Assembly (NCBI GenBank): GCA_963971425.1
Contig: OZ020515.1
Span: 11,424,291 to 11,488,290, forward strand
Source of the DNA: Bryoerythrophyllum caledonicum
Lineage: Eukaryota > Streptophyta > Bryopsida > Pottiales > Pottiaceae
Direction: 5' to 3'
Length of the DNA: 64,000 bases
Shown here: positions 184-61,278 of the stretch, one piece after another
How the letters are laid out: each line of letters begins with the position of its first letter
Numbering within the stretch: the first letter of the stretch is position 1
Made by a program: the position numbers and the translations under genes
The notes under the pieces: generated by a model
What the model saw: only the letters and a program-made list of their open reading frames with translations
What the model was told of the DNA's origin: nothing
Database searches by the model: none

Positions 184-802
184 ACTGCACACTAGCAAGA
201 ACTGGGCACAGGAGATCCCTGCTCACAAGTGACGAGACGATCCAACCTCGACACACCCACTACACACCTCAGACCCGCAACCAGCAGGCCTTGCTCCCCG
301 TCATCAACACACGAAGATCGGAAGACCTTGCTCCCCATCAGCTCCACGCAACCTCCCCAATATGGGAGTGGACACGCTTCACTTCCTACACCCACGCAAA
401 GAGATCAAGCTGCACCAACACCCAACAATTGTCAAGACCAATACTCCCAACACAAGACAAGACCGCATCAACGCACCGGCAATCCCCCCCCCCTAAAGAC
501 ACCCAGAGACTACATACAAGCACCATCTCAACGGAAACTCTACAACAAAGGACGACATCAAACTTGAACCTGACCTCCCAATCGCGCAATCAGCCTCCGC
601 CAACGTCGACACAAAGTGATTGCTCCCACGCCCTCCACCACAAGCAACAAACAACGAATCCAACTCCACCCCGATAGACGCATACGGAGGTGCCAGAAGA
701 CCACAACGCTCCCAATCACCACCAGAAAATCCACATTTACAAAGGTAAGCAATCGACCCTCAGTATTGACCTATTGACAGAAGATGTGCAGATCACAACA
801 AC

Positions 803-3268
803 TTGGACACTATCCAAGGACGTAAGACTAGCGCACCTCTGAAATTGTCTGCTTGGACACCCTCAGCCGAGGGCACGAAGCCAAAGTATACACAAGGACA
901 ACATAAACACAAGACCAGTGCAGCAAACAAGGAGCCTTCGACGACAGACAAGGACGGGAAGACCACGAGCAAGAACAAGGTACACACAAGGACAAGGACA
1001 AACAGGGCAACCTCGAGCACACGAGGAGAATCCCCCGCAGCACACTTAACTTGGGGATTCCCGAAGTCAAAACGAGAGCCTCCGCCAGAAGATCTGTACA
1101 AACAGGTGAGGCGATTACAACAACACAAAGACCAGAGCTCGACGGGGGAGCCTGCTACGAATAGGGAGAGCGACTGGGACTGCTACAAACAAGGAGTGCA
1201 ACCGCATACAAGCAAAGACCGGAGCTCAAAGAAGGAGCACGCACAAAGACGAGAAAATAAGAGCGAGCAACTACAACGATACAGTGCCTGGAGCCCGAAG
1301 TGGAAGAGCGCGGAAGGAAGGGCGCAGGAGAGCAACGAGGAGAAGAACACGAGAACAGAAGCACATTGGGCACCCTCGTCCAACAGGAGGGAGCTCTCGT
1401 GGGAGAGCAAGCGCCAGGAGGCCACTTATACGCCCTACCACAACACGTTTGAAAGGAGAGGCAAGTCCCATCCATCAAGCTCGGCCGCCAGGGGAGAGCT
1501 GACTACTCAAGCTGGCAGTCACATCCAACTGCCACAAGTCCACCTCAAAGACCCAGTTCGTGACCAGATAAGTCCCCTCACCCTCCTCACTCAAAACTTA
1601 CTACATCATAAGGATAATCTAGAAATGAGTAGTAGGAGAGGAATTGTATTTGGTGAAGAGATGGACGTTGACGAAGTGGTTGTGCAAGGAGTCACAACTA
1701 CAAAAGAGAAGGGCTCAAGGAAAAACACAGAAGAATCTGGGAGCAGCAAGAAAAGCAAAAACGACCAAGACACTAGAGGTAAGTCCACTAAACTATCACC
1801 TCTAACCAAAGACCTAAACTTCTGGCTAGGTTTTGAGACCATGGAGCGCATCGCGATAGATGAGGGCTTGGAGGCACCCCCAAATGATGAGACGACAAAA
1901 GAAATGATGGCCAGAGGCTTTAAAGCCAACGAAGCAGAGGAAGCAGCAGAAGCAAGTGTAGCATTCCCACGAATCCCCCAACTTCTTTATCCTTGCAAGA
2001 GAAGAGGAGCACAAAGACAACACTACAATATCACGCAAATCCCACTCGACATCAAGACCAACGAGGCTACAGGTTTGGCTCTAGACTTCCATGTTGCAAT
2101 TTTCTTCGAACCCCCCACACATTGCATGTTGCATGATGATGTCTACAACATAATAACTAAAAGACTAGACTCAATGGACATTAAACTTGGTACGAGTCTA
2201 ATAGACCCTATTTACATCCAATGCCATAGTGTCAAAAGAGGTGGTCAAAAAGGATTGTGGACGGGAATGTTTACGTTACACTTGCTTAACCCCGATACGG
2301 ACGGACTTATGTTGCTCAAAGGCCTTAGGCCCTTCATACTTGTGATAGACAATCATAAAGTCATAGGTAAGGTTTGCAAGACATACCACCATATAGCTAA
2401 CTCCACTAACCTCTCCGTGTGTATTAGAAGTGATGCATTGATAGGTATTACGGCACACTAACTATTCATGGATATTCTCCATAATAGCTTCAACCGGAGC
2501 CAAGACTTCGAAATCACCGGAGTGCAAAAAGTTGTGAGTGATCCTCACGCCTTCATCTCCACCACCACCCCGCAACAAGCCTCGAAGATTCAATTCCACC
2601 ATATCACAACTCAACACGAAGTCCTTCAAGCGAAGAAAACTTTCACCGGTGGCCGTATGACTCCCAAAGCTAAGGCAAAGAAGGACGCCCTCACTCTTAC
2701 CCTCTCCCCTTTGCCCATTCTTATGAGTGTAATGGATACCACGAATGCCATACGTAAAGTTCTAGGTAACAATAACACAAAAAATATTTGGTTTCATAAA
2801 GAGAACGGCGAGAGACATAATGGAAGTACCAATGTGGAATGTGCTAACCCTATTGTGTAGAGGAAGTTCGTGAAGAAGACTATCCACATGGGAGGAAACC
2901 ATGTGGACTTTGCTCCACATAGGAGGAGCTTGGAAGGAGTGGAGCCACCTACTCAAGAACAAGTTGAGAGCTTTGGCTTCAATGACATCAACACCGCCAT
3001 GGTCAACACCGTTGCTACATTCAAAATTCAAGATGCCCCCTCCTCCACCAATACCAATGTGACAAAGAAAGACCTTGAGGAAGCATCGGAAGAAAACAAC
3101 AAGAAGATGGGGAGAGAGAATAGAGAATACACGGACAAGCTACACGAAGAACTTGTTGCTCAAATGGAAAGCATCCAAAACTCCATGCAAGCCACCATTG
3201 AAGCCATGAGAGCCATCAAAGGAAGAGTCAAACCAAGACAAATTGAAGATACACCACCAAACATGTGA
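803..3268 (+). pseudogene. LINE-A ORF1 protein, interrupted
   Basis: One reading frame is open from 803 to 3268 except for TAA at 2459-2461 and TAG at 2858-2860. The likely true start is ATG at 1625 (MSSR), because the LINE-B copy starts at the equivalent place (MTSR at 20909) and the two proteins align from there. The stretch 803-1624 is K/R/E/S/T-rich and may be open leader or an N-terminal extension. The conserved core has FPRIPQLLYP, NITQIPLDI and LLKGLRPFIL, all with counterparts in LINE-B. The last 70 residues (about 3058-3240) are charged and look like a coiled coil, as in many LINE ORF1 proteins that bind the element RNA. I see no classic CCHC knuckle or RRM. Function is inferred from position and conservation between the two copies. 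Confidence 0.72.
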
Positions 3269-3736
3269 AGAACAAAGACCACACCGTAATACATATTTAC
3301 CACAGTAATTCGTATAGTAAAATACCAGTAGTATACGAATACATTAGTATACCATACCGTTACTGTACCTCGAATTATATTCAATACTATTACAGTATAC
3401 TACAAATACGGTCAAAAATACATACAAATACAAAATATATACATCATTACACATACACATACATATGGTTATATACACATATAGACATACATACCTACAC
3501 ATATACATACTTACATACATCATATACCATACCCCCATATATACATACACACATAAGTACACCAATACTTACACATACCCGTACACACATACACACATGG
3601 ATTCACACCCCCACAAAAATATACATACACCCACCAACACAAATACACCTACATAATAAAACAAATACGCCAACACGCACAATTACACACACACACAAAT
3701 ACACAGACATACACACAAATAAACATTCACCCACGC
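3269..3736 (+). repeat. Low-complexity TAC/ACA/CAT tract between ORF1 and ORF2
   Basis: A degenerate tract of short words such as ATACAT, ACACAT and CACATA, with very little G. It is open in one frame (3265-3759) and would encode Thr/Tyr/His/Ile repeats, but this looks like a by-product of composition. It separates ORF1 from the 2A-bearing leader. Confidence 0.7.
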
Positions 3737-5140
3737 ATGTATATAAAAACACACAATGAATCCACAAAAACACATACACACATATACATACAAACAACAT
3801 CACATAACAATACATACTTACAAAAGAAAATACATACGCATACCAACCCATACCCACATATAAACAACCTAACACCCATACAACTTAAAACACATAAAAA
3901 TAAACTCCACCTTTATACAACACCAAAAACACACATACACCCATACCAAAAAAACCATACACCAAATCACATCACCACAAACGCTTATCCAAACACAACA
4001 CTCAAAAACATAAACAAAAAAGAAAACATAACAAAACCCACACACGAAAATATACACTTATACATAAACAAAAACAATAAAACCACAAACAATAAACCAA
4101 ACAACCAACCAAAAAATACACATAAAACATTATACCAAAACATACAAACTAACACATACACCAAAATAAATATGCAGATAAACCCCAACATATATACTAA
4201 CATACCTACGTATAGAGACAACTTTAATACCTCCTCAAATACCAACACAAACCAATATACAAATATCCTCACACATAATAATCACATACACACATGGCCA
4301 ATCACAACCACAAGATTATACAAACAAACATACACACACCTATACATCATGGATAAAACAAAAACAACTACGCAAATAAATATATGGACACATAAAAAAA
4401 CAACAGCAAACACAACTACACCCACCAAAAAAATAAAAAATAACAAAAAACTCATTTCCCTCATACAAAATACAAACACCCACCCACCCCCAAACAAACA
4501 TGACCTTAACAACATAACAAAGACCCAAAAAAATATACAAAAAACAAAAACCTCAAAACACAGTACCAAACATACACCCAAGCACATAAAAATACTATTA
4601 CTACTAAGCGGAGACATAGAAACCAATCCAGGTCCCATGCCTAATATACTAAAAAGACACCCCAAATCACATTAAAAAAATGCCAAAATTTACTTCATAC
4701 CAAATACCATAAAATTCCAACCGGAGTATAAACACATTACAAAATCCTTCGCACCTTTCCTCAAAAGCACACATACACTACACCACACACATAACGATAC
4801 ATACCCAAACATTGTCCAATACGTACAACAAAAAAATACGCACCCACCACCCCACATCCTATACGCCCTAATAGTCACCACCCATCTACACATAGATGAA
4901 TGCAACCACCTCCTAAATCCACAAAACTTAAACACAATCACATGGACTAATACACTTCTACAAACTTTACTAAACTTACAAAATCCATCCGAACGACACA
5001 TCCACTACACACACCCCTATGAAAAGTTTCTTGAAGACAACCAAAATATTATTAACCATAAAAACTCAATACATAAAGAAATGTATGACTTTTTACACAA
5101 CCATACCATAGTAACATACCTCCTTCAAATGAAACAATAA
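3737..5140 (+). pseudogene. N-terminal leader of LINE-A ORF2, with 2A-like motif
   Basis: The frame starting at ATG 3737 is open for 312 codons to TAA at 4673-4675 and then, in the same frame, open again to TAA at 5138-5140. TAA triplets are common in the other two forward frames here, so 900 bases without one in this frame point to a coding past. The first part is Asn/Thr/Lys/His-rich with no domain I recognise. At 4586-4636 it carries a 2A-like motif. The part after the motif (about 4640-5137) is less biased and leads, after a frameshift near 5140, into the endonuclease. Intact copies would probably have one ORF2 running from the leader through the 2A into EN-RT-RNase H. Confidence 0.68.
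4586..4636 (+). other. 2A-like ribosome-skipping motif (GDIETNPGP)
   Basis: The in-frame peptide IKILLLLSGDIETNPGP matches the 2A consensus D-x-E-x-N-P-G-P, with the Leu-rich stretch and Ser-Gly that often precede it. Skipping would fall between the Gly codon GGT (4631-4633) and the Pro codon CCC (4634-4636). In established 2A systems the ribosome omits this bond and releases the upstream protein. In this copy translation would stop 12 codons after that proline at TAA 4673. The motif itself is intact. Activity is not shown by sequence alone. Confidence 0.85.
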
Positions 5141-5142
5141 AA

Positions 5143-6036
5143 CTAAAATTCCCCTACCTCCCTAACAATCTCATTAATGAACTACTAAAATGCTTAGACC
5201 CCATACCGGAATACATCCACCCACCACCACCACCCCCCTACCTCCCCCCACAAAATCAAAACATCAAATCAAATCAAGAAGACACACACATAATCACATG
5301 GAATGCCTCCTCCCTAAACACTGCCTTACCTAGCTTACAAACTTTGATCACACACATAGCCACACCACCGGCCTTCATAGTTATACAAGAAACAAAATTA
5401 TCCGCCACAAAATCTACAAAATATATACAAAATACATTCCAAGATTATAAACTCATATTTAACAATACACATGCACTTACAAGGTGCATCCAACAAAGAA
5501 GACCATACACACCGGGTCGTGGTGGCCTCCTAACACTAATATACAAAAAATATGCCTTCCCAGGTAACATCAACAAAATCCCCACCCCAATGCACATATC
5601 ACCTTATATTCAAATAATAAAAATCACTAACCACCCACTACAACCATGGCTAATCTTTCACATGTATATGCCATCCCATCCAGAAGATACTAGATACGTC
5701 ATAGACATACAAAACACTATTATAACTCATATTAATAATAATCCCAATCACACATACCTATTATGTGGAGACTTCAAGAGAGACATAGCACTAATCGGCC
5801 GCCAAAATGGAAATAATATCACCCCCCTCAAAACATTGACTACCAATGGCTCCGCTTTACGGAAAACCTAAACTTTGTATACATCAATACAGATACACAA
5901 TTCTCTAGACAAGGTGGCTATAATTATAGCGACTCGAGCCTAATAGATGGATTCTATATAAATACAAACAACAACACACACTACACCTCCACAACAAACA
6001 AAGATGATATTCTCAACTCGGACCACTCCCCCATAC
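5143..6036 (+). pseudogene. LINE-A ORF2 endonuclease domain (APE-like)
   Basis: After a Pro-rich linker (about 5215-5250) the APE/DNase I-fold endonuclease begins at IITWNASSLN (about 5290). Visible motifs are the first-strand Asn (WN), the catalytic Glu in IVIQETKL, the RGGLLTLI segment, LLCGDFKRD (canonical GDFN, with Lys for Asn), SLIDGFYI and the terminal SDHSPIQLH. One frameshift near 5820-5850 moves the reading from frame 1 to frame 3, and the second half is perfectly recognisable there. The domain nicks target DNA to prime reverse transcription. Lys in place of Asn in GDFN may be a decay mutation. Confidence 0.85.
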
Positions 6037-6038
6037 AA

Positions 6039-8600
6039 TTGCACAATCCTAGCAACACATTAATTAACAGAACCCCCACAATACCAAGCAATGACACTAT
6101 ACGCATACTCAACCCTATACCAAAAGACAATATAGAAAATTTCAACACTAAATTCTTCGAAGAAAACTCCTCACAAATAGACTCCCTCACAAACACTCTT
6201 GAAAATAATAGTCATCTATCACAAATACAATGGCAAGAAGCATGCCACACTCTAGATAAACTCATCAACAAAATTTCTGATACATTAGAACAAACTTGTA
6301 GAGCTCATCCAATACCTCAAACAACAAACATAACTTCTCAACAAGGTGGTTATTTATCCCGCAAACTTTCCAAAACCTGGAAACAACACCTGAATACATA
6401 CAATGTCATACGGAAAACCATTAGAATTGTAAAAAACAACCCTCAATGGCGTAACCATCCCATATGCAATGAACTACTAACTATACAACACACCCAAATC
6501 CCTACTCCACCACCTTCAGACCTACCTCATGATACATGGATAAAAGATATCGCACTAATTGCAAAAAATGCCAACATACAAGCTCGAAAAATAACCTCAA
6601 AATACGCCAAAGAGAACATTAAGAAAGCCATCTCGAAATACAGACAAATATACGAAATTAGCCCCAAGAAAATTAACAGGAAAGTCTTTAAAAACCTAGA
6701 ATCACTGCCTATGGATTGTATCATAGATCAATACAACAATATTTTAACTAGCCCAGAGGACATTGCAAATGAAATATTCAACCAGCAAACAAAGAGCAAT
6801 AGACCAACAGTACCAACATGTAATTGTCAACCACAACATCCAATTGAATGTACATGTGCAGTACGCCAATACCCATGGCATGACCTTGATGGGTTTACCC
6901 TTGACAAAAGAGGCGAACCAGAAACTCCACTACATAAATATCATAATAGAGCCACATACGACACATGTCTCAAAAACCTTGGTAACAACAAAGCCTCAGG
7001 CCCAGATCGCATACCAAATTCAATACTCAAAAACATGCCCCCAAGATTCCATAAACTATTATCCCTATTCTTCTCTCACTGCTATAAATAAAATCAAATA
7101 CCAACGTCATGGAAATCAAGTACAACAATTCTACTATACAAAAATGGCGATCCATCTATACTACCCAACCATAGGCCAATCGCACTAGCTAACACAATAT
7201 ATAAACTCTTCACTAGCACACTCACCTATATACTATCCTCATACGGAGAAAAATTCAAAATCCTACATGATAGTCAAGAAGGATTTAGAGCAGAAAGAAG
7301 TACCGCTAGACAAATACAAACTATAATAGCCGCACTAGAAGACGCAAGATTTACAAACCAAGATATATACATATTATACGTCGACTTTAAAAATGCCTTT
7401 GGCTCAATAGACCATACCCGACTACTAGCAATAATGATGGACCTTGGTTACCCAAAAGATGCAACTACACTCGTTGGAAACATCTACTCTCAATCATCTA
7501 TTTGCTATACCGGTGAACACTTCGGAAAAACAAAACCTTTACCCATCCAAAGAGGGACTATACAAGGAGATACCCTTAGCCCATACCTATTTATTATATT
7601 TTTAGAACCACTACTTAGATGGCTAGAACGAGGCAACAATGGATACACTTTAGGCACATCACAAATCACAATAAACTCTGCCGCATATACAGATGACCTC
7701 GCCGCCATAACTAACAAAATTAAATCTATCCAAACACAACTTAACAAAATCGATAGATACTGCAAATGGACCGGAATGGACGTAGATGTCTAAAAATGTG
7801 CCGCTACCAGATGCCCAAACAAATCCAAAATAAACCTTACCACTTTCAAAGCTCTAATGCAAGCTACCAACATCAATTACCGCAATCAACCGATCCCCAT
7901 ACTACACCAAAATGAACCATACATATACTTAGGCACAAATCTTGTTCCCTCACTAAAATGGAAAATCCAAATCCACACCACAACGACGAAACTCATCAAA
8001 CAATGCAATGAACTAACAACATGCCCGGCCACCATGAAACAAAAAATAAAAATGATTGATACCGTAATACGTCCAGGTGTGGCATACAGTTTCTACAGTG
8101 TACCATACTCTATGCCTGCTATAAAAAAACTTGATAAAAAAATAATAGCCATACAAAAAACTATATGTGGATTACCAAAATGTATGTCAAATGCAATAAC
8201 CCAACTCCCACATAACCTATTTGGGCTAGAAGCTTTCTCCCTCAAAAATGCATACCTCCGATGTATAGGTGAACAACTATAAAACGCCTTGAATGACAAA
8301 GGTAGACTTGGAAAAATATACAATGGACTAACTCATTATGTCCTTGCCCAATTCGGTGGCGCCGAAAACATACCCAGAATTAAAACAAGTGACTGCATAA
8401 GATCACCGATAACAAGAACATTCTTCTTACCAAAACATATAGCTAAAATCCACCTTAAAAGTACACTCTCAAACTTCTTCATTAATCCTACACCACTAGA
8501 AATGCTATGGCGCCAAGAAACGCTAAACCACAACACACTCAATGCCCATCTCTCCCAAAAACTCCTACAAAACTCCTCTCCAAAAACATCTTTGAACTAA
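6039..8600 (+). pseudogene. LINE-A ORF2 reverse transcriptase domain
   Basis: One frame covers this stretch, broken only by stops at 7089, 7791 and 8280. Reverse transcriptase motifs in order: NKASGPDRIPNSIL (about 6985), NHRPIALANTIYKL, SQEGFRAERST, the first catalytic Asp in LYVDFKNAFGSIDH (about 7375), RGTIQGDTLSPYLF (about 7550) and the catalytic box at 7686-7697. That box reads YTDD instead of the usual YADD. The region before the RT (6039-6900) is a linker with no domain I recognise. The stretch 7857-8600 looks like the thumb and connection. The enzyme would copy LINE RNA at the nicked target. Confidence 0.9.
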
Positions 8601-10199
8601 ACCAAATTACTCTACCCAACGGCACACACATCATGAATAATGAGGATTTCAAAGCCCACCACTTCACCCCATCCAAACTAGTAAAGAGTGCTCTAAATAT
8701 TGCTAAACAACTCTTCTGCCACCCAACATGCCCCACCACATGCCAGACCCCTTGTAACATACACCCATCTTCCTATATACTTCAAGATTCATACATCACC
8801 ATCAACAACTACATCATTCCAAGAAATATTCCCCTACCAATCCACCCCCCTAACCCCCCACATCTATACCACCCCCGGGCCCCAACATACATCCCCAAAA
8901 GCCCTACCACATATCCCATTAATAACATCATACACCATAAACATATCCAATACACAGACACAAATAGTATACAAAATACCTACACAAAATACCTACACAA
9001 AATACCTATGCCAATGGCAACACAATGATAATACATATAACAAATGGCTTCACCAAAGAGCCCTTTTCCCACGACACGACACCAATACCTCCTCACATAA
9101 CATAGAAAAATTAAAACAATACTACCAGAAAACTCAAAAAAATATATACTCGGACATCATCTTAGCCCACCACCCCCAAAAACAATTCCCAGACTCAAGA
9201 TCTGTAACACCACCCAGAATTATCCCACTCTTAAAAATCCATACACTAGAATGTAACCTCGAAAAAGATATCCTTACATTCTCAAATACAGTTAAAATGG
9301 ATAACGATCAAGTACATCTATATGAAGAAAATGGTCGACATTTACACACTATCCTCATTACTCGACTCCAATGGCTTTGGAACCAATACAATACTAAACT
9401 ACAAACCCCTACGAACATTGAACCATCGACCCAACCCTTTGAAACCGAACTAATATGGCTATACCAAAGATATAAATACTGAATACCAAAAACTAACCCC
9501 CTAAAAAATGCGCAATACACAATACCCACTCCCATCCTAGACTCACTAATCTCATCCTTTAACATCGAACAATCATACTTCTCTTCCCCGATCACATGTT
9601 CTATCAAACTAAAAAAATTCTACTCACCTTATGAAAGAGACAAAATATTCGGATCCCTAGGCAAAGCCTTTGACTATAAATGGACCGGTAATGGTATAGC
9701 TCACCCCCACAACGAGAAGGACATGGAACAAGCCATACATTGAGCTAGACTTGCCGCCAAACACGATCCAAATAACACAAATACAATCATCATCACACCA
9801 AACAATAATTGGTACCAAAACAACAACCAACACTTAAACCCATTTCCAGATTCTCATATCATTGCATTATTTGAGGCAGACACAATATCATACGAAGAAC
9901 CTAATATCCCACCCGAGCTAAAAAAACCCCGAATCGAGCCATCTACATTACAAATACTATGCGTCCATCATCAAAATCAAACTCTTGGTTCCCTAGAACA
10001 ACTTGCTGAACTTGTCTCCATAAGAGACAACTTAAACATACGCTGACTATACACAAAACTGGCCCCACCAACACCTATACAAACCCTTGTACACAGAAGT
10101 AAAAACTGGTCAAAACTAAACTATGTTAACAACACATTAAACTACTCCGTCACACCTCTCCCTCTCCCAAACTACCCAACTCATACCTCACCAAAATTT
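8601..10199 (+). pseudogene. LINE-A ORF2 middle region with possible methyltransferase-like domain
   Basis: Coding continues with frame changes near 8590 and 8990, a Cys/His cluster (FCHPTCPTTCQTPCNIH, about 8715) and a Pro-rich stretch. From 9483 the same frame reads through TGA codons at 9480, 9741 and 10044. At 9600-9900 there is a compact conserved-looking domain: SPYERDKIFGSLGKAFDYKW, then GIAHPHNEKDMEQAIH, TIIITPNNNWY and FPDSHIIALFEADT. The pattern (FG-LG-AF-W-G, an N/A-H-P loop, then a hydrophobic strand with P-x-x-x-W) recalls Dam-like N6-adenine methyltransferase domains that I believe have been described in some eukaryotic retroelements. This is recollection of a pattern, not a search. 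LINE-C keeps the end of this region. Confidence 0.5.
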
Positions 10200-11678
10200 A
10201 ACCCTGCACATAGTTATTACACCGACGGCTCCTTCAAACCACCAGAACAAATTAGCCCAGGATCTTGGCGCAGAGAAAAAGCTGGCTATGGCATATATAA
10301 CTCTACCAAGGAAATTAAACTAGCCAAAAGACTCCATGGACTACAAAATATCCTCAGAGCAGAACTCATGGCCATTCACAAAACACTACAAATCATCACA
10401 ACAAAATACAATGATGAACCCGCAAATATATTCACCGATTGTATAAATGCACTCTATCTACTCAACACTCAAATAACACACCCTACCCTCCACAATAGCC
10501 ACCCCGACCAAACCATATTAACATCAATGGTCCAAATGTTACAAAACCGTACACAAATCACAACCCTCTACAAAGTGAGAGCCCATGCCAACATTGATGG
10601 CAATGAACAAGCAGACAAATTAGCAAAAGAAGGCCGAGAAAAAACATATAAAAATGCCAAAGACCCACACGAACATGCCCATGCCACCCCGTACTATTTT
10701 CAAAAAGAAGATTGGCCTTCCAAAGAAGATACCCCCGACAAAGGCCCGATTAGATTTTTGGGCAAATATCTCAAAAAACAAGACCTATACAACAACCTTG
10801 ATACAATCTCAGACAACCTCCCTAACATAGAAAATTGACTAATAACAATGACATTGATAATAAACTCTCTACTAATTTTTGGAAAAACCCAATCATCACC
10901 GATTCACAAATCACATGCCTTATCAAATTCCGTACCGGTCAATATATGGGAAATGCCCTTAAGCAACTCTTCTTTGGGATAGAAAGATTCCCATCCATAA
11001 CATGCCCCATATGCCCGTCAACGGACCCCGACACATGGCTCCATGTTCTACTCAAATGCCAAAACCATCACATACATTCTCTAATTGTTAAAAGACATAA
11101 TAAAGCGGTATGGGAAGTCCGAAAACTAATCACCTCCTACAATAAATCGAGATGTTTTATACTAATGAACGCAAGCACTTCTTAATAACAACCCGCAAGA
11201 AAATACGGTCCCCCCTTGGCTGCTCCCATGCTCATGTATGACCCAAAGATGTCATTGCAACGCTCGGCTCAAACCGGACATCCTTTGTGTTAAAGGTTTA
11301 CCATATAATGACCCACCACCCGATAACATCAACCAAGATTACACCATTCAATTCATTGAATTCACATATTGCAACGATAGATTTCCCTCGGAAACAATCC
11401 AAAATAAAATTGATAAATACCAACCCCTTGTTGACGACATCATTGCTCTCGGGTGGAATGTGGATCCCCTTATTGTAATAACATCTGGCGCTCGTGCCAC
11501 CTCCTTTATCCCCTCTATGAATACTCTTGAAGATGTCTTCAAAATACCCGTTGAAACAATTAAAACCACCTTTAAAAACATTAACACCATTGCTATTCAA
11601 TATGCCATGTCCATTCTTCTACATAAACGCAAAATCGAAAACAACCAAACCCTCCCCGATACACAGGACCCCCCTTAA
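10200..11678 (+). pseudogene. LINE-A ORF2 RNase H and Cys/His C-terminus
   Basis: RNase H motifs are clear: SYYTDGSFKP (first Asp, about 10212), LRAELMAI (Glu, about 10356), IFTDCINALYLL (second Asp) and KVRAHANIDGNEQADKLAKE (about 10578). This enzyme would remove RNA from the RNA-DNA hybrid. A TGA at 10836 and a frame change lead into the C-terminal part (10839-11185) with CPICPSTDPDTWLHVLLKC (about 11000), a Cys/His cluster like those after RT in many LINEs. A last frame (11238-11678) contains a short Cys/His cluster and ends in QTLPDTQDPP with TAA at 11676. LINE-C contains homologues of all these parts, which confirms that they belong to one protein. Confidence 0.85.
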
Positions 11679-18437: not shown

Positions 18438-18838
18438 CTGAGTAGAGCTCCGAGATTTGTAGTGAGGGGAGAGGAAGGACTTAGACTCAGAAGCTAGCAT
18501 CCGAACAACAAGAGGTGGCTGGAGTTGTTGTGGAGCCCTTGTTTGTGGTGGATATGAGTTTATTGTGGAGATTTTGTGGAGTTGAGAGAGACACAAACAA
18601 TTGGAACGGGCTCACACATCAGATCTGTGAAGTAGTCGCTTGATGATGAGTGTATGTGTGCTACATCTACGTAGTAGTAACTGAAAGCAGGGATACTAGT
18701 GTTGGTGCCCAGATCGATGCGACAGTAGTGCTCATACAAGATGACAACACTCAGATCTAAAGAGTAGCAGATTAGATCCACAAACCTCTATTAGTCGTCC
18801 CATCTCCCCGACCTACACACTCAGCAAACAAAATTGAA
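18438..18838. other. Intergenic, no gene seen
   Basis: Unremarkable sequence between the cyclophilin fragment and LINE-B. No ORF or repeat that I can support. Confidence 0.5.
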
Positions 18839-18982
18839 GACAAGACCCAAGTAAATCTCCTGGAGCTGCTAATCGGCAGCAACCCTCCTCGGCCTCCGCA
18901 CACATCAACAGACAAGTCCCAAGCAAATCGTCTGGAACTGCTGATCGGCAGTAGCCCTCCCCCGCCTCCGCACACATCAACA
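18839..18982 (+). repeat. 72-bp tandem duplication in LINE-B leader
   Basis: Two copies of a 72-bp unit (each with GGAGCTGCTAATCGGCAG or a close variant and CCTCCGCACACATCAACA) lie side by side. Position matches the 45-bp repeats of the LINE-A leader although the sequences differ. Confidence 0.78.
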
Positions 18983-20908
18983 TCCGCCCCTGTTACACAG
19001 ATTCAGGCTACATCTAACCTCTCCATCTCAATTTTTTTATTTCAAGCACTCTCTATACTAACCAAGCTTGTTGCACACAACAGCCTTTTTCCTCACGCAT
19101 CGACACCAGCCCTTGCGGCATAGCTCCAATCCAACACCATGCAAAAAATAAGACGGAAGCAACAACAAAAACGCCCAAAGCTGAGAGGAGACCAAGTTAG
19201 CTGCAACAACCACAAGACAAAATTGAACAGGAGCACTTCTTTGTTGGAACACAGATCTGGACAATCTAGACAAACTGGACGACCCAGACCACATCAACCA
19301 CCGACACAGGCTACATCACTCCTTTTAAACTCCCTTCTCTTTTCCATGTTAATCATCACTACATCCTACCACTTGACCTTCTTTCGTTTTTTTCACTTAA
19401 TCTACACTACAACAATTATAAATCAAATTCAACTCTATGAAAAAAGCCATATATACTACTCGTACTACCTACACACACTAGTACTAACACATCATACGAA
19501 AAATCTGAACTGCCCTTTCCAGACTGCTGCAGGTCCAAAAACAAACGGATGTCTACACAGACATATCCACACAAGACAACACAATATCGCACAACGGAGT
19601 GGAGACAAACGACAACATTCTACTTCAAAAAATCCGACAATCATCACCGAATTCAACAGTAACTTCACGACACCTCATGCTATCTCTTCCCTACTCCCTC
19701 CCATACATACACACAAAATCTGATTTTATAGATATTGCAGCTACTCACCCAACTGTTGCAAGACTAATCGGACTTGTAGATCTCATCTCCTCCCTCAACC
19801 TCAGCTATCCAGACAAACAACAACGAAAAGGAGAATTAGAAAACAATACAAAGGCAAAGACTCTAAAGCAACCCTAATCCGGGAAAGGGGTAACAAGAAC
19901 GGCATCAAAAACGACAATGACCACCGTAATGGAGAACGAGAAGTCCGTAGTAGAGACAAAACAGCAAGTAGCGACCACATGACCAGACTCAAGGGTTAGA
20001 ATCAGCCCAACAAACCAGCGCTCCCACAACAAATGCACATCAACAACCACAAACATACATGCCACACCCCTCTAAATCCTCTTCAATCTTGTTTTGTAAA
20101 TTCTTCTACTTTTATTTCCATCTCTCCTTGGACAACATTTGCTCTTGCATTACAACAAAGAACCAACGCCACACTTCTGCCATAATAGTTGCTAGACTAA
20201 AAAACCTTAAACCTACATAAAACGCACTAAATATCACAATCCAGTCTCTAGGCACAACATTGTAGAATACTTACAAAGTGTGCAAAAGTGTTGCAAACCT
20301 TTGTATAGATCTAAGAAGAAGAAACAAGAAAACAACAATCTAAGTCCGGACGACAAAAAGCTCGAGGAAGACCGCCTGTGCATCCTTGATGACTACCGCC
20401 TAAGCCCAAAGGACACAGAACTTGAAGAAAATCAAGTATCCTAGGACAGAAATTGGCGGCTGCAACCAGAACCAAAGCACAACCCAGCTCCAGCAGAAGG
20501 GGCGCAGCCAAAACTCAAGTACAGGGGACAACCACAACCGAAATTGAGACGATACAAACCGCAAGGAGGCGTACAGCTGCAACACCAGACTGCCCGGACT
20601 CTTGAAGGCTGCCTCCAGTCTCACTCGGTGCCCAAAATCGTCGGCTCTGGAACTCTCACCCCAAAATTACTCTCACCTCCAAAGCCTGGAACCGGACAAC
20701 CCCAAGTAAAGGAGCCCGCTACATAGCAGCAGCAAAGATTACAGAAAGAGTAAAAGCGTGGGCATACCCACGAATTAGTAGTGGGAGATTAGTGTGCAAC
20801 ATCCCAATCAAGAAGAGAGAACTAAGCCCAAGGCCCTTTGACATCACCTCAGCCGCAACCCATCACCTCAAGACGGACCAGATCCCCCCTCTCTACCGAA
20901 CAACAAAA

Positions 20909-22205
20909 ATGACAAGTAGAGACCCCAAAAGAAACCTATTCTTTGAGGAAGACATGGAAGTAGAGTCTCCTGCAGAGATCTCCACCACATCCTCAAAGGA
21001 GAAGCTTGTAAGAAAACCAGAACAGGTGACGAGCAGCCTCAAGAAGCACAAAAATGTCTGAGAAAGAAGACGTAAGTCCTTCACACTTGAACCTCTGAAC
21101 ATGGGTTTTAAGTTCTGATTTGGTTTCCAGGTGATGGAGACTCTTGCACAAGAAGAGGGCATGGAGGAGCTTTCTAGAAAGGTGACAGCTCAAGACTTGC
21201 TAGACAGAGGTCTTAAGAAGGAGGAGGCAAAGGAAGCAAGCATTGCCAAAGTAGCCTTCCCAAGGATCTCCCAACAATTGTATCCAAGCACAAGGAATGG
21301 CGTGGAAGGCCAACACTTCAACATAACCCAGGTTCCTTGTGACATTGCTGTGAATAATGCCTCAGGTTTGGCATTAGATTTCCAAGCTGCTATTCATTTG
21401 GAGCCTCCTACCTTCTCCATGATACATGATGAAGTCACAAATATGGTTGTTAAGAAGCTAGAGTTTATGGAAATTGAACTTGGTGAGGACCTCATTGATC
21501 CAATCTCTATACAATGCCTTAGTATTAAAAAAATGTGGAAAGAAGGGAGTATGGGCGGGTATCGTTAAGTTGCATCTATTAAAACCAGAAATTGACGGTC
21601 TCATAATGCTCAAAGGTCTTAGGCCTTTTATACTTAAAATTGGTGGCCATAACACCATAAGCAAGGTTTGTAAGAGTTTCCATCACATTGCAAGTTCTAA
21701 CCTCTACGTGAAAGTGAAAGGCGACTCCCTTGTAGGAATTTCAGCACAAGCAGTCTTCAAGGACATCCTACACAATAGCTTTACAAGGGGGCAAGAAATT
21801 GAAGTCACGGGAGTACACAAGCTTAAAGAGGACGCACATGCTTTCATCATTGCTACAACTCTGGAGCAAGCCAAGAGGATCAACCTCCACCAAATTACAA
21901 CCCAACACGAAGTGCTTCATGTCAAGCACATCTCAGGTGGGTGCACTCCGCAAACCTCTAAGCTAAGAAAGAAGCTCTAACCCTAACCCTCTCCTCCTTG
22001 CCTCTTTGCATGAGTGTCATTGACACTACCAACACAATCCATAAGATTATGGGTGCAAACAATATTAAAGAGACTTGGTTCCACAAGTGGTTGGGACTAG
22101 ACACAATGGTAGTGTCAATGTACATTGTGCTAACCCCATTGTATATCGTGAGTTTGTAGGTAAAACATATACCATTGAAGGGAATTTTGTGGACTTTGCC
22201 AATTC
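20909..22205 (+). pseudogene. LINE-B ORF1 protein, interrupted
   Basis: ATG at 20909 starts a protein (MTSRDPKRNLFFEEDMEVES) that aligns with LINE-A ORF1 from its ATG at 1625. A stop at 21059 and a broken linker precede the main block from 21134 (METLAQEEGMEELSRK). A frameshift near 21540 is followed by GVWAGIVKLHLLKPEIDGL, LLKGLRPF-type sequence and ITTQHEVLHVKH, all shared with LINE-A. A further frameshift near 22095 leads to the end at VDFANS. The shared core between two diverged copies shows that ORF1 was under protein-level constraint. Confidence 0.72.
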
Positions 22206-28914: not shown

Positions 28915-31900
28915 TCATACAGGAGCCGAATTTCCTATATTACCAGCTGACTCCTTGTCGTTCGATAATCTCTGCGACACCATAAAAAAATAAGTCATGA
29001 GCAAGACCAAGATGATTCCGGTCCAGTGTTAAAAGGCAACAATTATTGAATTCGGTGATAGAAAACTGTGTTCCCGTATACCAACTCTAAAACAGGGAAC
29101 AAGCGTGAAGAAATTCAAGCACCTACTATGAAAGTATGACCACAGGAAATCAATCAATATTTTCGTGCAGGGAGGAGAGCATAATTCTAACAGAGAAGAG
29201 CACTTTTACATCATTTGAGTAAGATTTCATACCAGTTGGCCTTTCTTGAGGAGTTTGACAACGTGGTAGTAAAGAAAACCTTTTCCATATGATAGCGCAA
29301 TATCAAGGGAAGTGTTCCCATTCTGCAACGTTAACATGCCAAAGAGTGAGTTCAAAGTAGAAAAGTAGAACTTAATGCATGAACAAAGGCTGTCAAGGTC
29401 AAGGACTATACCTTGTTCTTTATATTAGTGTCAGCACCCCTATTAAGAAGAAGCTTGATTACATCTAATCGTCCACTCTGTACAGCTATGTGAAGAGGCG
29501 TCCACCCATCCTGCAAACTCAACGGCAAGCACGTCAGTTTGAACTAAGCTATTCCGGAGATGTGACAATTATGTGAAACAAATCGTGACGTGCTAAATTT
29601 TGAAAAAGTTTCGCTTTTGCATAACCCAAACTCGGAATACGACAACGGCATTCAAGGGATTGTATTGATGAATCTATCAATATTGTCGCAATTGTAAACA
29701 GACCAATGAAGAACTTGCATCTAAACATGCTGAAAATACAACCAAAGCGTGCAAGATAATCTACATATTCAGCAGATAAGCAATTAGTTGTACTGGGTCA
29801 AACATTACTCCTACAATAAGTAAGGTGTCGAGAGCAGGATCCTACATTATCACAAGCATTAACGTCGGCATTTTGACGCAGCAAGGCTTTTATGGCGAAA
29901 GTGTTGGAACTTCGTGTTGCATAATGCAGAACACTAGCCCCATCCTGCAGTCCAAAGACCACATCCGCATTTGAATTAGCGAAAGATTGACAGAGTATTA
30001 ATAGAAATCCAGCATACACGGCATTGAAATAGGACAATTGAGCTTTTCTATCACCCTGGAGTTCCAAATCTCCAGATAATCGCTACTAATAACAATAGGT
30101 AGCTTGGATTATACTGCTCGAATACTATCTAGATATAAACCTGGAACATTCTCAAGGCAGAGGAAAAACAAGCGAGTGACGTATGTGATACTTTTAGGCA
30201 ACGCAAAGGGAAATGTAGACTTCTGGAGTTTGAAAATTGTCAGGTTGGGCACATATTGAAGTTACTAACCTTGTCAACAGCATTAGCGTGTGCACCGAAT
30301 TTTAGCAAAAAACGAATTATTGCATCCCGCCCACAAATGACAGCCCAATGCAGTTCTGTGAATCCATCCTGAAATAACGCCAATTTCAAAGGCAACTCAG
30401 TAAGCACCAAAAGTGATTTCAACAATATCAACGGTAAACTAGAGGAGCCCCTTATTGGAAGATGACTTGATCGGCAAATGACAACTGAACTAAGTGCATT
30501 CTCGATAAACTCTCTTCTTCAAGAGTATCTGTGAAAACCGCAGCCCATAGCACATAACTTTCTCAACATAAATTCTAGTTTAATATTTCACACATGAATA
30601 TATAAACGTCAAGGACTCTTTGTTCGGATGAACTTACCATGTCCCGTGAATTTACGTCAACACCGTGCCTTAACAGCATGTCCACATGTTTGATTTGCCC
30701 CGATGCCGAAAACGTATGCAAGGGATTCCACTTTTTCTGCAATGCATTATAGAACAAACAGTTAGGTTCCTGCTTCAAAAACTACCAGTTCAAATGCGGC
30801 TTATGAATAGTTGCATACTACACAGCGTAGGCTTAATATAATTATAGAAACTTCAACGATATTGTACGACTACATGCGGAAGGCTTAACCTCCAGGGAAG
30901 AACTAAGTGAGAAGACCCTAGAAGGGAGAATAGACGCTCACAGAGGTGATTGTTGAGAGCTCGGGAGTAACAGTTCTGAAACGATCGCTTTCCTCCTCGG
31001 TCATTAGTTTATACGACTCCTGGATCCAATTCAGAATGTTAATTCGTTGTCACAAGAACCTTCATAGGCGTGATAGCATAACAGCTGACAGGCCTCGAGC
31101 CTTACCCCGTTTTCGTCGTTGCTACCTTCTATGTTTGTCTCTGCTGATCGTGGTTGCTCAACCATTTCATCAACTGACAGTTGACTAGCCATCCCCTGGA
31201 ACGAACATTATTGAGGTTTAATGGACATTATAATTTCATATCAGTTCAAGAACAGGGCGGTTATTAACATTATAGTTGATAACCTTGTAAAAGTGTTAGA
31301 TGATTACACATTCACAAATGTACATAAACAGTAAATAAATTTGACAGGTTCAACCCACCAAGACCATGGGCAATGATCAATTAGAGTACATTAACATTGC
31401 TACATATATTGTTCACATAAACGTTGCACAGCTGACTTACCTTCATGACAATTTTCAGCAATTTGACTACTTCAAAGTACCTAAACTCTTTGCCGTAAGA
31501 CAGCGCCATATCAAGAGGGGTATTTCCGTCCTGTTAATTCACCATGCAAGTCCATGAGATTCACAAAATTTCTGCATATGAACAAGACCGAGATAATCTA
31601 ACAAGCAAATCAACAAACCAACAGACAAAGCATGTAAGGGGGAAAAGATAGATGTTAATCAAGATGCATTGCCTGGTTTCGAACGGTAGGGTCAGCACCC
31701 CGAGCTAAAAGAAGATTAACTACATCCGTGCGTCCACCCTGTACAGCTACATGAAGCGGTGTCCAGCCTTCCTGTAGAACCACACAAAATCATGTAACGT
31801 CAACACAATGAAATCGAACCGTTCTCAAAGAAAAAAGCCGCAAACTCATCAGCGACCAACCCGCTGAAAATTTGACCATAAACAACGTATTCGCAAAAAT

Positions 31901-33948
31901 AGTAATGATGAAAGAATAATAAATTTCCTTTCTAGTATAGTAGACGCACATTGTCGCGTGCATTGATGTCAGCGTCGTGCCGAAGCATAGCCTTGATTGC
32001 ATAGGTATTCGCAAGACGTGCTGCATGATGCAAAACAGTAGCCCCATCCTGCATACAAAGGACAAGCTGGTAAGACACTCTGTAACATTCCTGACTAGCT
32101 CCCGTCGCTGAGAGCTTTTTGCGGTCGCCAAAGAAACATAGCACGCCTGACTCACACACGATTAAAGAAAACCGTGAAAACGGTTGCAAACAGCATGAGC
32201 AATTGGGAACTTCATACATCGCCGGTATGAAAATCAAAAGGGAAGACAGAGACTTAAGAAGTGCTAACTACGATACTCGTTTTACCCAAAAGGGGGGCGG
32301 GGGGGGCGCGAAACGTAACCTTGTCTGCAACTGTAATGAGATCTTCAGTTTTCAACAAATACCGAAGTATGCTATCTCGAGCACCACCACAAATAGCAGC
32401 CCAGTGCAACACTGTGAAACCGTCCTGAAACACAATGCACCACAATGAAGCTTGCGCACAAGTTTGTGATACACTCTCCTCTACAGTACGGAACTTCTTT
32501 GCTCGTCACTATATCGCATCATTGCATTAAAAGGCAATTCAGAGAGAATTAGTACCACATCTTGCGCATTAATATCACTGCCACGCCTCAAAAGCAAATC
32601 CATTTGGTTAATTTGGCCTGATGCAGCAAAAGTGTGCAAAGGATTCCATTTTTTCTGCAAAGCATCAAATTTGAATCATTGTCAGATTTTTGCATGTTCC
32701 TAGTTTCAGCGAGAAAAACACTGACGGCAAGTCCCCAATTCTTGGTAAGTGGAGGTGACCACAGAATTTGGGTGAAACAGCTAGAAATCGGATATGAATA
32801 TTTGATAGTGATTGTATCAAGTGGAATCAAATTTGAGAGGAGAGCTAGATACTCGAAGTAACATGGACGTTCATTGGATGCTCACCGAAGTAATTTTTGC
32901 GAAAATGACTTCGGTAATCTTAAGTAGAGCCTTCTCCTCTGCGGTCAAAAGTTTTGAACCTGACACCTCCTGCAACAACACAGATATGATTGAATCTAAG
33001 AACAATCTCGCGAGTCCCCACCTATAGTTAGGCGGTAAAGAAATAGACAAATAATTAGATAAATAAGATACTATTCCAATACAAACTGGACAGAGCAATT
33101 TACTGTTATGCTTGAAGTGCAACTAACAACTCGTTCAAATGAAGGACTTTCCAGACACAAAACCTTTGGAGTGTCCAGAAAAGCCCCAGGAAAGGCACCT
33201 AAAGCCTTACCATATTTTCAACATCGTGTGACTTCTTAGACGATTCGGCTGATGGTTGGCGCTCACCAAGTTTCCCAACTGACAGCATCCGCGACATGTC
33301 CTCGAAAGTTGCGTTACCAAGAACTGCGCGGGGATTCATCGGTGTTGCCCGCTTCACAGAGGCAGAAACGTCTGCGTCCCGATGACCAATTCTATCGTAT
33401 CAGTGCATAGAATAGAAGTACCCGCTTACCAAGGGCATCAAAACAATCTCTGAACTGTAGTTCAAGGGATATTGAGAAGCCAATGAAGCAATCCGAGAAG
33501 GAGAATATTCATAAGAAAATACGCAATCTTCAATTGTGAAAGAAGTTAGAGGCTCACCAGGAGTTTTTTCGGGCACCAGGGGACCGTCCTCGTCATCAGA
33601 AGCATCGGTAGTTACATCCTCCGGAAGCACCCGGGGAAAGAACTTCTGCTTATACACCTCCCTACCGGCGATTTGCTTCTCCAGCAGCATTCGCTCACGC
33701 TCCTGCCTTTCTCTAGCTCTCCTTACAAGAAGATCCAGCGTCTCCCGTTTCCTCTGCTTCTTTGACTTCGACAACTCTTGCTGAACTGCCCTCCACTCTT
33801 GTGGAATCAACCCCGAAGACTCAGCCACTTCGTCCTCCGTTTCGCTTTCATCCTCTGGCAACACTGGTGCCGGAAATAAATCCTCAAACATCCCATCTTC
33901 CTCCTCAAACCCGGGCACACTATTCAATACACCAAAAACACCAGACAT
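28915..33948 (-). CDS. Ankyrin-repeat protein, AKRP/EMB506-like, with duplicated repeat block
   Basis: Sixteen exons join into 1,839 coding bases (612 residues). Exons: 33948-33558, 33371-33211, 32969-32886, 32654-32556, 32424-32320, 32048-31950, 31771-31673, 31530-31441, 31195-31106, 31019-30942, 30736-30638, 30368-30270, 29944-29846, 29510-29412, 29322-29233, 28971-28915. The N-terminus is acidic ([20 protein letters not shown]) and then basic and coiled ([19 protein letters not shown]). A linker [10 protein letters not shown] precedes repeats beginning [44 protein letters not shown] and [10 protein letters not shown]. This order matches plant AKRP/EMB506, ankyrin proteins needed for chloroplast and embryo development. 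The linker plus five repeats then occurs a second time (exons 10-15), so there are ten repeats where I expect five. Ankyrin repeats bind partner proteins. Start chosen at the ATG giving [11 protein letters not shown] did not see a convincing transit peptide, so plastid location is uncertain. Splice sites were chosen by eye. Confidence 0.85.
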
Positions 33949-37580: not shown

Positions 37581-40500
37581 ATGCGATCTGGTGAAGAGAC
37601 AGAAGCGATGGAGACGACGGAAGTAGCGATCGAGTTTCTGGACGACTTCTTTCTCAAGGCCGGGAGCCGGCGGCCGTCGCTGATGGAGCTCCCGTTCGCC
37701 ATTCAGGAAATCCAGTGGGAGCGGGCCGCGGCGGAGAAGGTGTACGCGCAGGGGCGCGCCAACGGGAGCGGCGGGCAAGAAGTCACGGTGGAGGTGGATT
37801 TGTGGAAATTGGAGCTCCCCGTTGAGGGCAAGCCGAAGTTCTTGGTGCACCAAGTGGTCGGGGCATGGTGAGTAGTTGGTCGCAGTTTTCTTCTCTTGAG
37901 AGAGAGAGACAGTTACTGATGTCGTTTCTCCCCCCGCGCAGGATGGAGCTGCGGAAGCCCCGGGATTTCTACCTCGAGACCATGAAGGTGGTGATGGTCG
38001 CCGCGCATTTCTTGATCTTCGCCAAACAGAGCCCGAATTCTACTAAAGGCGATGTGTGGCGCTATGTACGCAAAGAGTGCAGTGAATTCAAGACGAAGGC
38101 GAATCAGAAAGATCTCGCGCAGGCGTTCCTTCTGCTGCAATCGATTGTGACGAGCGACCCCAAGCTGCAGACGTCCTCTGTGAGTTTTACATTGTATTTT
38201 CCATGCGTTGTGTCTCTATTTTCGTCCTGTGCAGCAGCTTTGGTTCTTTCTCTTTTGACAACACAGAGACGGACATCGCATGAGCTAACCATGTGTGAGC
38301 TCATACAATGTCATGCTAACAATGAGATAAGTCACAAATCCTAGTCTTTTTTAACAAACCGAAGTCTTCTCTCTTCTGTTCTGATGTCACTTACACTTGC
38401 ACTTACACTTACACTTACACTTACACTTTCCTTGGAGTGTAAATGTTTGATGTGTGCTATGCCAGAAAATGCTGCATCAAGAGCCCTGATTAGGTTAATT
38501 GTTTGTTCAATCTTTCACCAACTTTGGGTTCCTCTTTTGATTTTGCAGATCATTCCGCAGTTCTTTCCACATCTGTTCAAGAAGCTGGGGTCACAAGTTG
38601 TGATGGTGAGTCAGACCTGAGTGTTTCGACGTTGTTTGATGTTGTTTGATGAGTTGTTGGATGAGTTGTTTGACGTTGTTGGATGTTGTTTGATCTTGCT
38701 TTCAATTGCAGTCACTGAATTGATCTTTGAGCTTGTTTTTTAGGCCTCAAATGCTTTGGACAAGAAGAGGCCGCGTGTGAAGAGGGAGTGTGAATCACCA
38801 GTTTCAGAGACCTTGGGGGCATGTGAAGGAGGAGGAGGACTAAGCATTCAAGTGAAGGTGGAGAATTTCACTTCCAGTCAAGAGGATTTCACTTCACCTG
38901 CTGGCGATACTTCGCGAGGGGAATCAAGTGGTACACAGGGTCCCCGGATGCGTAGCCTTGCTGAGTTTTCCATGGAGGCGGACCTTCCCCTTTCCAAGCG
39001 GCTCACTCTTGCCAAACAGAAGAGGAAACCAGGGCGGCCGTCGCGTCGAGGCTCGCTCAGGAAGGGGAAGGAGACTCGCGATGACTGCGTGAGCGCGGGA
39101 GACGATGAGTGGGTTGACGAGCCTGAAGTTTGCGCATTTTGTGACGATGGTGTGGAGAAAACTGAACGGCTCCTTTGGTACGTTTGAAAGGAATATTAGT
39201 AGTAGTTGTTTTTTTCTGACTTGTTTGAATGTTCTATCATTGTTAGTTTATGCCACTGAATGTAGCTGCTACTTTTTCTTTCTTTGTGCAGCTGCGATGG
39301 GCCATGCATGCGATCCTTTCATCCCACTATAGATTCTGGATGGCAGAACAAGTGTCCAACGCTTCGCCTTACAAGAGCAGCTGTCAGCGTAAGCCCATTC
39401 GGTGTTGTCTGGAAAGTGGGACATTCTTGTGCTAGAAATTGGATTTAACAGCAATTCTTGCTTGTAGTTGGTTCAACTCTGCTTACCAGTTGTTTTTATT
39501 GGCTGTGATGGTTCTTTGTCTGTATACTCTGTGAAGATGGTCGTCAGATTCTGTGTTTGAAATGAACCAGCTACCTTATTCACTGGCAGAATGAGTACTA
39601 CTGCCTGAACGTGTTTTCGGATATATGTTCAGCTGACATCTTTCTCTTCTTCAATTCAGGTTCAGACTTGGATGTGCCCTAATTGTGAGGCTGGGCAGCA
39701 CCAATGCTTTGCTTGTGGGAAGCTGGGGTACTCAGCTGTGCCAGCTGATTCAACGGAGTCCCAGGAGGTGAGAAAACTTGCACTTCAGGATTTGACTGTT
39801 TTCCTTTGTCTGTCGCAGCTTATTTACATGCATATTCATTCTACAGAGCTCACGCAGTCGTACAAGTGTTCGTGCATGTATTTCTTCTAAGCTTGTTCCT
39901 ATTGTTCTCATTCTCATGGCATCTGTAAGCGTAATTTTTTGAACTAAAACGAACTCTGGGTTTGTATTCTCGTTCAGGTCTTTGCGTGTGGGGCGAAGCA
40001 GTGCATGAGATTTTACCATCCCAGTTGTGTGGCCAAGCTCCTCGTTCCAGAAGCAGCTCAAAACAATTTAGCATGTCGCATCCAGCTGAAATTGGAGTCA
40101 TTTATCTGCCCACTTCACAAGTGTGCAAGCTGCAACTTGGATGAAGACAAGTCAGATGAATCCTTGCACCTCATTAAATGCAGACGTTGCCCTGTTGCAT
40201 GGCACGAGAAGTGCTTGCCCCCGTATGCTTCTTCTACCATCCCAATGTTTGGTACCCAATGTTTGGTACCCAATGTGTAGTGAATTTTAAAGTATATGCG
40301 GTTTTGAGTAACTGCACACTGATCGTGTGCTCTGTTGTTCGTGAATCTCAGAATATGCCGGACTCAACTCTGGGAGCTTGAAGGTGGCAAGTGCGTCATG
40401 TATTGTGGGTTCGTATTTCATAACCTTGCCTCCGTAGCCTAAATTCGTATTCTAATATCGGTGATTTGCAGACTTCGAGATTGATTTTTAATAACACATC

Positions 40501-54500: not shown

Positions 54501-55362
54501 TTCTATGAGATACTGCTTTTGTAGACGGAGGGAGTTGACTGTGATTGATTTTCATGTAGGGCGGAGCATTGTGTTGTGCGGTGTGTCGAATGTGATTTTG
54601 CACAACTTTGAGATCAGGTCGGTGGGCGAGAGCGACACGGTGCACATCTTCGCGGGGTCGTCGCGGGTGTGGGTGGACCACGTGACGTCCACCGACGCAA
54701 AGTTGGGCCTGGTGTCCGTGTTGCAGGGCTCCACCGACGTCACCATATCGAACTGCCACCTCTCCAACTACAACTTCAACCAACTGTTGGGCGCGTCGGA
54801 CTTCGACAAGGAGGATGCCGATATGCGCGTCTCCGTCTACCGCAACTGGTTCAAGGACTCCATGCAACGGATGCCGCACTGCAGGTCACTCCCATCTTCT
54901 TCATCATTCGAGGTTGTTCATAGTTGTCTTCGTGATCCAAGAGGAAAGTGTTGGATTCATGATGTTGTGTTCCGCAGGTGGGGGAAGTGTCACGTGCTCA
55001 ACAACTTATACTCCAATTGGGGCTACTACGCGCTCGGCGCGCGCGTGAGCGGCAAAATCTACTCTGAGTACAACGCGTTCGTGGCGAGCCGCCGCACTGA
55101 GATTACGCCGTGGTTCAATGGCATTGGACCCAACTACGACCACACCATTCTCATCTCCAGCTCCAATGACGTCTTCCTCAACGGCAGCACCTTGCATGAG
55201 TTTCTCAGCCCGGAGACCAGCGAGTCCGGGGTTGCGGAGCAAGGCGCCATCTACAAGAATGACAAGATGTATCCTCCCATCATCCCGCCCTCGTCCCTGC
55301 CCAATGCGCTCCCGAGATGCGTCGGCGCTGTCTTTGGTCACCGCATTCAACAATGTTCATGA
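51564..55362 (+). CDS. Pectate lyase-like protein, secreted
   Basis: Exons: 51564-51941, from 52209 (3' end unresolved), about 52664-53008, 54560-54884, 54978-55362. Residues 1-23 form a signal peptide (VFAVLVLLFLSTHSCA). The next two exons encode a helical region with regular Cys residues and no clear family match. Exon 3 has the pectate lyase start: CGKGKRLPLCAFGYASGVSG, AAYVVTSDEDD, PGSLRYGV, WITFARSMVVTL and TTIDGRGSIVTITG. Exons 4-5 give the beta-helix core: VWVDHVT, GSTDVTISNCHLSNYN, QRMPHCRWGKCHVLNNLY. The catalytic Arg in RMPHCR is present. In typical plant enzymes VWIDH is followed by a segment with two Asp (DGLVD) that bind calcium; here the matching positions read LGLVS. The enzyme would cleave demethylated pectin in the cell wall, if active. 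The donor of exon 2 is unresolved. Confidence 0.78.
53040..53935 (+). repeat. Intronic minisatellite in the pectate lyase-like gene
   Basis: A unit containing GCATCTTGTATTCTCTAACC, a CATCTTAGGTACGTCAC segment and GATAGAGTTTGTGGGAGG repeats about six times between 53040 and 53935. Unit length varies from 122 to 180 bases because an inner GTTTGTGGGAGG block is present once or twice. It fills most of the 1.55-kb intron. Confidence 0.85.
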
Positions 55363-60895: not shown

Positions 60896-60910
60896 GTTGT
60901 GCGGCACACC

Positions 60911-61268: not shown

Positions 61269-61278
61269 GTGGCACACC

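Follow-up and report, generated by a model that had tools for sequence, protein, structure and literature searches.

The 2A peptide of L1Tc from Trypanosoma cruzi was reportedly described by Heras in 2006, and Odon is said to have described, in 2013, 2As of non-LTR elements from sea urchin and further species. L1Tc is presented as a non-LTR element in which a 2A accompanies an AP endonuclease, a reverse transcriptase (RT) and an RNase H (PMC4748587, PMC5972666), and according to published accounts, non-LTR elements of trypanosomes, sea urchin and "a range of other species" carry 2As (PMC4981915, PMC5972666). One of these accounts defines a 2A by a C-terminal D[V/I]ExNPGP, states that Leu residues near this core are important for activity, and reports that 2As function in plant cells (PMC4981915). 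In established 2A biology, as outlined in PMC5972666, the ribosome stalls at the Gly of NPG, the upstream product is released, and synthesis restarts at the Pro. Also relevant are the Dualen/RandI LINEs, whose make-up is given as an APE-type endonuclease, an R2-type endonuclease and an RNase H (PMC3636483, PMC4640811).

The element analyzed here lies in a 64 kb stretch of DNA, which we call the window. On the descriptions cited above, it resembles L1Tc in that a 2A-like motif occurs in a non-LTR element encoding AP endonuclease, RT and RNase H. It differs from this trypanosome element in having a long basic leader, a separate ORF1, a putative helical domain between the 2A and the endonuclease, and an R2-like C-terminus recognized by eye. 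With the 2As of sea urchin and other species, as characterized in PMC4981915, it shares a hydrophobic tract followed by D[V/I]ExNPGP in an APE-type element; it may differ from these in its host, which is probably a plant, and in the tandem 2As of one relative. A literature search, beyond which reports may exist, found neither a plant LINE with a 2A nor a 2A-like sequence in Dualen LINEs, and a plant or Dualen-like LINE bearing a 2A may therefore be new.

The element and its leader frame

The features of the window are listed below, with the basis of each in brackets.

770-3268 (+): ORF1, a single frame with in-frame stops at 2459-2461 and 2858-2860 (ORF list, copy comparison)
3557-4675 (+): leader ORF, basic, N/T/K/H-rich, of low complexity (ORF list, stop counts)
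4586-4636 (+): 2A-like peptide IKILLLLSGDIETNPGP (six-frame motif scan; 2A-like motif in frame in 21 of 24 relatives)
4637-5140 (+): conserved post-2A domain, beginning MPNIL after the 2A proline, with an in-frame TAA at 4673 (relatives; low-confidence all-helical model)
5089-5871 (+): N-terminal part of an APE-type endonuclease, its frame shifted relative to the leader (Pfam Exo_endo_phos, E 0.0016)
5817-7091 (+): end of the endonuclease (NSDHSP) and linker to the RT (resemblance to the relatives P0143 and P0145; no Pfam match)
7092-7793 (+): RT, with YVDF.. and YTDD (Pfam RVT_1, E 1.8e-24)
7794-10046 (+): broken fragments between RT and RNase H (ORF list, Pfam)
10047-10838 (+): RNase H (Pfam RNase_H, E 7.7e-14)
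10826-11185 (+): CCHC-type motif, C-x2-C-x9-H-x4-C (by eye; spacing identical in the copy at 61393-61734)
11169-11678 (+): candidate R2-like restriction-type endonuclease, KPD..IEFTYC..KIDKYQPL (by eye; copy at 60545-61398)
20846-22143 (+): second copy of ORF1, broken (copy comparison)
60545-62736 (-): third copy, with RNase H and C-terminal domain, interrupted near 60960-61270 (copy comparison)
29412-32424 (-), 39975-40226 (+), 54493-55359 (+), 57956-58998 (-): host-like genes, with ankyrin repeats, NSD-like PHD fingers, pectate lyase, and Ssu72 in pieces (Pfam)

The initial annotation had placed GDIETNPGP in frame in the ORF2 leader, after a Leu-rich stretch, and this we could confirm: the core occupies 4610-4636 within IKILLLLSGDIETNPGP (4586-4636, +), in the frame of the ORF at 3557-4675, and the hydrophobic tract ILLLL lies upstream of it. 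Across the six frames of the window, NPGP occurs once, in this motif. An identical nine-residue core is tabulated for several sources, Senecavirus A and cosavirus D among them (PMC8623073). It had also been noted, correctly, that the motif is intact and is followed by a stop in frame; the frame continues as MPNILKRHPKSH and ends 12 codons on, at TAA 4673-4675, so this copy is unable to make the enzyme part by way of the 2A now. The remainder is broken by more stops and frame changes, and the window copy of the element is dead. Core motif and hydrophobic upstream tract are thus both present here, whereas coding sequence on both sides of the motif is found in relatives and not in the window copy.

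From its first in-frame ATG (3737; additional ATGs at 4172 and 4349), the leader ORF runs for 299 residues to the Gly of NPG and carries a net charge of +37. Over 3560-4672 its frame contains no stop, compared with 18 and 20 in the other two frames. The leader DNA is poor in G (41 G per 1113 bases), and fewer stops are therefore to be expected. Nevertheless, when 20,000 sequences of matching composition were simulated with a first-order Markov model, none stayed open over this full length in any frame, and a run of at least 312 codons arose in one of 20,000. Because the frame lacks stops and the simulated sequences did not stay open, we think it probable that the leader has been maintained as an open coding sequence, unusual though its composition is.

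The first protein of the element is not the leader, as a separate ORF1 (770-3268) lies upstream. Between the two, a stop-free frame at 3247-3759 (+), in which no Met occurs, shares 22 bases with the end of ORF1 and lies in the -1 frame relative to it; over 3269-3737 it contains no stops, versus 4 and 7 in the other frames. The leader may once have been continuous upstream to ORF1, by frameshifting or otherwise.

As regards the other copies, the six-frame NPGP scan of the window found no 2A with the second ORF1 copy (20846-22143). Upstream of that copy are two 72-base tandem repeats (18838-18981, +; 86% alike), possibly representing the LINE's 5' region. In the minus-strand copy both C-terminal stretches are recognizable, with KPD changed to KPN and KIDKYQPL to KINKYQLL.

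Host genes were sought by six-frame Pfam searches of 28-58 kb on the plus strand and of 28-43 and 49-64 kb on the minus strand. The pectate-lyase gene (54493-55359, +) has as its best PDB match the plant pollen allergen Jun a 1 (E 2.7e-15), followed by VexL (6e-11), and the Ssu72 gene (57956-58998, -) is presumably plant-like as well. We regard a plant, or a close green relative of plants, as the probable host. Repeats of approximately 23-29 bases lie at 55385-55766 (+), directly 3' of the pectate-lyase reading frame. A PiggyBac-type transposase (DDE_Tnp_1_7) with an internal stop is located at 47502-48932 (+) in this plant-like genome.

Relatives and conservation of the motif

We searched for relatives with the 2A and the following domain, reading through the intervening stop, and obtained 19 proteins at E <=1. 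A second search, restricted to long proteins (up to ~2800 residues allowed), added five, giving 24 in total. Scans of viral contigs and genome contigs found no relatives, and a plasmid search gave four distant bacterial records with 24-29% identity.

The 2A-like motif is in frame at the same place in 21 of the 24 relatives, which were retrieved with a query that contained it. Strict DIExNPGP is kept in 17 of the 24, and four others have an altered E or I. Among the 21, the cores are GDIETNPGP (nine), GDIEPNPGP (four), GDIHPNPGP (three), GDIELNPGP (two) and, once each, GDIESNPGP, EDIETNPGP (P0137) and GDTAHNPGP (P0126). All nine motif residues, which intact copies had been expected to keep, are thus found in nine relatives, and strict DIExNPGP in the 17; the cores of P0126 and P0137 are altered. 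GDIHPNPGP is similar to GDVHPNPGP, a yadokarivirus sequence reported as 2A-like (PMC10817634).

Copies that lack the motif or carry it out of frame would have argued against a function, and the three exceptions are not clear cases of this. The ORF call of P0129 begins at the Met directly after the motif. P0132 and P0134 are probably frameshifted copies, since at their N-termini they look like a translation of the same DNA in a different frame. That the motif arose by chance in low-complexity DNA with few stops is a reading to which the scarcity of G, lowering the number of stops, lends something; given that no simulated sequence stayed open and that the motif is in frame in 21 relatives, we consider it hardly conceivable. 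An origin as a stray piece of virus was also rejected: the motif is part of an element that also encodes RT and RNase H, and its surroundings are the same in the relatives.

In all five long relatives, a single uninterrupted frame leads from the leader through the 2A and a conserved domain of ~200 residues into an AP-type endonuclease. Pfam detects the endonuclease in four of the five, above the cut-off in P0143 (26.8 bits) and P0145 (31.4 bits); in P0144, the first endonuclease motifs were recognized by eye. The window's own Exo_endo_phos match scores 18.7 bits, under the Pfam cut-off of 24.5. The initial annotation had envisaged a 2A between an N/T/K-rich leader and the endonuclease, with intact copies open into the RT. 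The order is as envisaged, but the 2A and the endonuclease are not adjacent, the conserved block lying between them. Similarly, the frame is open into the endonuclease in five of five long relatives, but none reaches the RT: Pfam found no RT domain in these proteins, which have 358-680 residues after the 2A (the longest protein has 1261 residues). The predicted fold of the post-2A domain has a pLDDT of 57, and its best PDB match has E 7.

For the analysis of conservation, we aligned 22 sequences, including the window, which form 15 clusters at 90% identity. Only rows with NPGPM were taken, which by itself makes the Met and the final four core columns invariant. Between pairs of sequences, identity averages ~0.15 over leader positions -60 to -20, 0.47 over the Leu-rich tract and 0.87 over the nine core residues, the final four of which owe their invariance to the selection of rows. 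The five free core columns average 0.77 (G 0.91, D 1.00, I 0.91, E 0.68, x 0.33), which is only slightly above the 0.72 of the second of the two 20-residue blocks after the core (0.61 and 0.72). Within the core, variation is greatest at the x of DIExNPGP (T 11, P 7, L 2, S 1, H 1), as in known 2As, and positions -9 and -8 are L or I in all 22 sequences.

This pattern bears on whether the peptide, conserved and translated, might skip poorly and function chiefly in targeting or arrest, as a hydrophobic peptide at the N-terminus of ORF2. According to PMC4981915, a 2A-like sequence can also serve as a signal sequence, and two relatives keep the frame despite altered cores. We nonetheless think such a role unlikely, because the D is invariant, the G and I are nearly so, and variation falls mostly at x, which is what skipping needs; moreover, P0145 carries the same core twice.

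Tandem 2As and the leaders of relatives

P0145 contains two in-frame 2As with the same core, 159 residues apart. When the sequences after each 2A are aligned in the register set by the motifs, over 40, 50 and 60 residues, only 0, 1 and 2 of 20,000 shuffles, respectively, are as good. An unregistered BLAST of the same parts is weak (9 of 200 shuffles as good). Because the fixed-register alignment beats shuffles, we propose that a block consisting of the 2A and part of the downstream domain was probably duplicated in tandem. P0139 has the inter-2A block of P0145 (62.4 bits; 0 of 200 shuffles as good). An upstream TNPGS in P0128 might be the remains of a first 2A, but the upstream part of this protein does not match the inter-2A block of P0145 (16 of 200 shuffles as good). 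Multiple in-frame 2As in one ORF are also described for picornaviruses (PMC11512398); those are viruses, whereas P0145 belongs to a retrotransposon and has part of the downstream block duplicated too.

The called leaders of seven relatives that we measured have 100-902 residues, with net charges between +21 and +119. For eight relatives, an alignment of the leader is possible across 61 to ~100 residues preceding the core, and because conserved positions are present there, part of the leader may be under selection too. These alignments are also pertinent to the alternative that ORF2 truly starts at the Met directly after the motif (4637) and that the upstream frame is transcribed as a mere leader. 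All 22 aligned sequences have that Met, as they must when rows are selected by NPGPM, and the ORF of P0129 is called from it. However, the upstream frame is free of stops, and the residues before the Met are conserved, in those eight relatives over the whole alignable stretch, which makes this start very improbable.

Several recurrent motifs were observed in the leaders. That of P0144 has an RPTGLAT-like repeat near residues 121, 497 and 780, and a weaker one near 627; the P0138 leader has one such motif. An ASAYRPRH-like motif is common to the leaders of P0125, P0141, P0142 and P0143, occurring twice in P0141, ~190 residues apart. The P0141 leader further contains a stray endonuclease-like piece (YTHGRGGL, residues ~380-395), with GRGGL again near residue 790; this is perhaps a template jump or an assembly artefact.

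Affiliation and predicted recoding

Elements of the Dualen/RandI group have a cysteine protease domain, and we know of no 2A in this group. In the broken fragments at 8283-10043, no protease was found at E 1. Shared with the group are the APE-type endonuclease (above the cut-off in relatives, below it in the window), the RT and the RNase H; a candidate R2-like endonuclease, read by eye, is probably a further resemblance. PDB sequence searches with this candidate and the CCHC piece gave weak, unrelated matches only (best E 0.07), and the predicted fold of the C-terminal piece is uninformative (pLDDT 40). Compared with PDB chains, the RT profile matches three R2 chains at 7e-31 to 5e-30 and L1 at 6e-18; 8gh6, which we take to be Bombyx R2, also scores 6e-18, and because it scores like L1, these values leave the clade unsettled. 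A difference lies in the hosts, those named for the group being green algae (PMC3747384, PMC8226300), and a 2013 table of plant LINEs likewise puts RandI under green algae (PMC3747384). Given the combination of APE, candidate R2-type endonuclease (by eye) and RNase H, we describe the element as Dualen-like rather than assigning it to the group.

Judging from sequence comparison, we consider it probable that the motif is a genuine 2A (StopGo) of a non-LTR retrotransposon family, which recodes ORF2 in intact members. Such members would have one ORF2 in which a basic, low-complexity leader is followed by the 2A, the putative helical domain and the APE-type endonuclease; we infer that ORF2 continues to the RT, the RNase H and the R2-like C-terminal domain. 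The ribosome would stall with the Gly of NPG in the P site, and the leader would be released. The predicted skip site lies between this Gly (4631-4633) and the Pro (4634-4636), and synthesis would resume at Pro-Met-Pro-Asn, the enzyme part beginning PMPN. By resuming at the Pro, the ribosome would make the enzyme part as a separate protein without an internal start. It is important to emphasize that we infer skipping and its efficiency by analogy with established 2As.

More tentatively, and with slightly more doubt than belief, we suggest a broader picture: Dualen/RandI-like dual-endonuclease LINEs might thrive in plants and produce their ORF2 enzymes by way of a conserved 2A, a tandem-2A sublineage might obtain three proteins from one frame, and the leader might be a strongly basic nucleic-acid-binding protein.

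If active, the 2A would explain how a separate leader and enzyme part come from one frame. It would also add a plant-like host, and perhaps a deep-branching type of LINE, to the non-LTR elements known to use 2A recoding in nature. This would bear on whether 2As arose more than once in retroelements, and the family offers native 2A sequences that are likely to work in plants.
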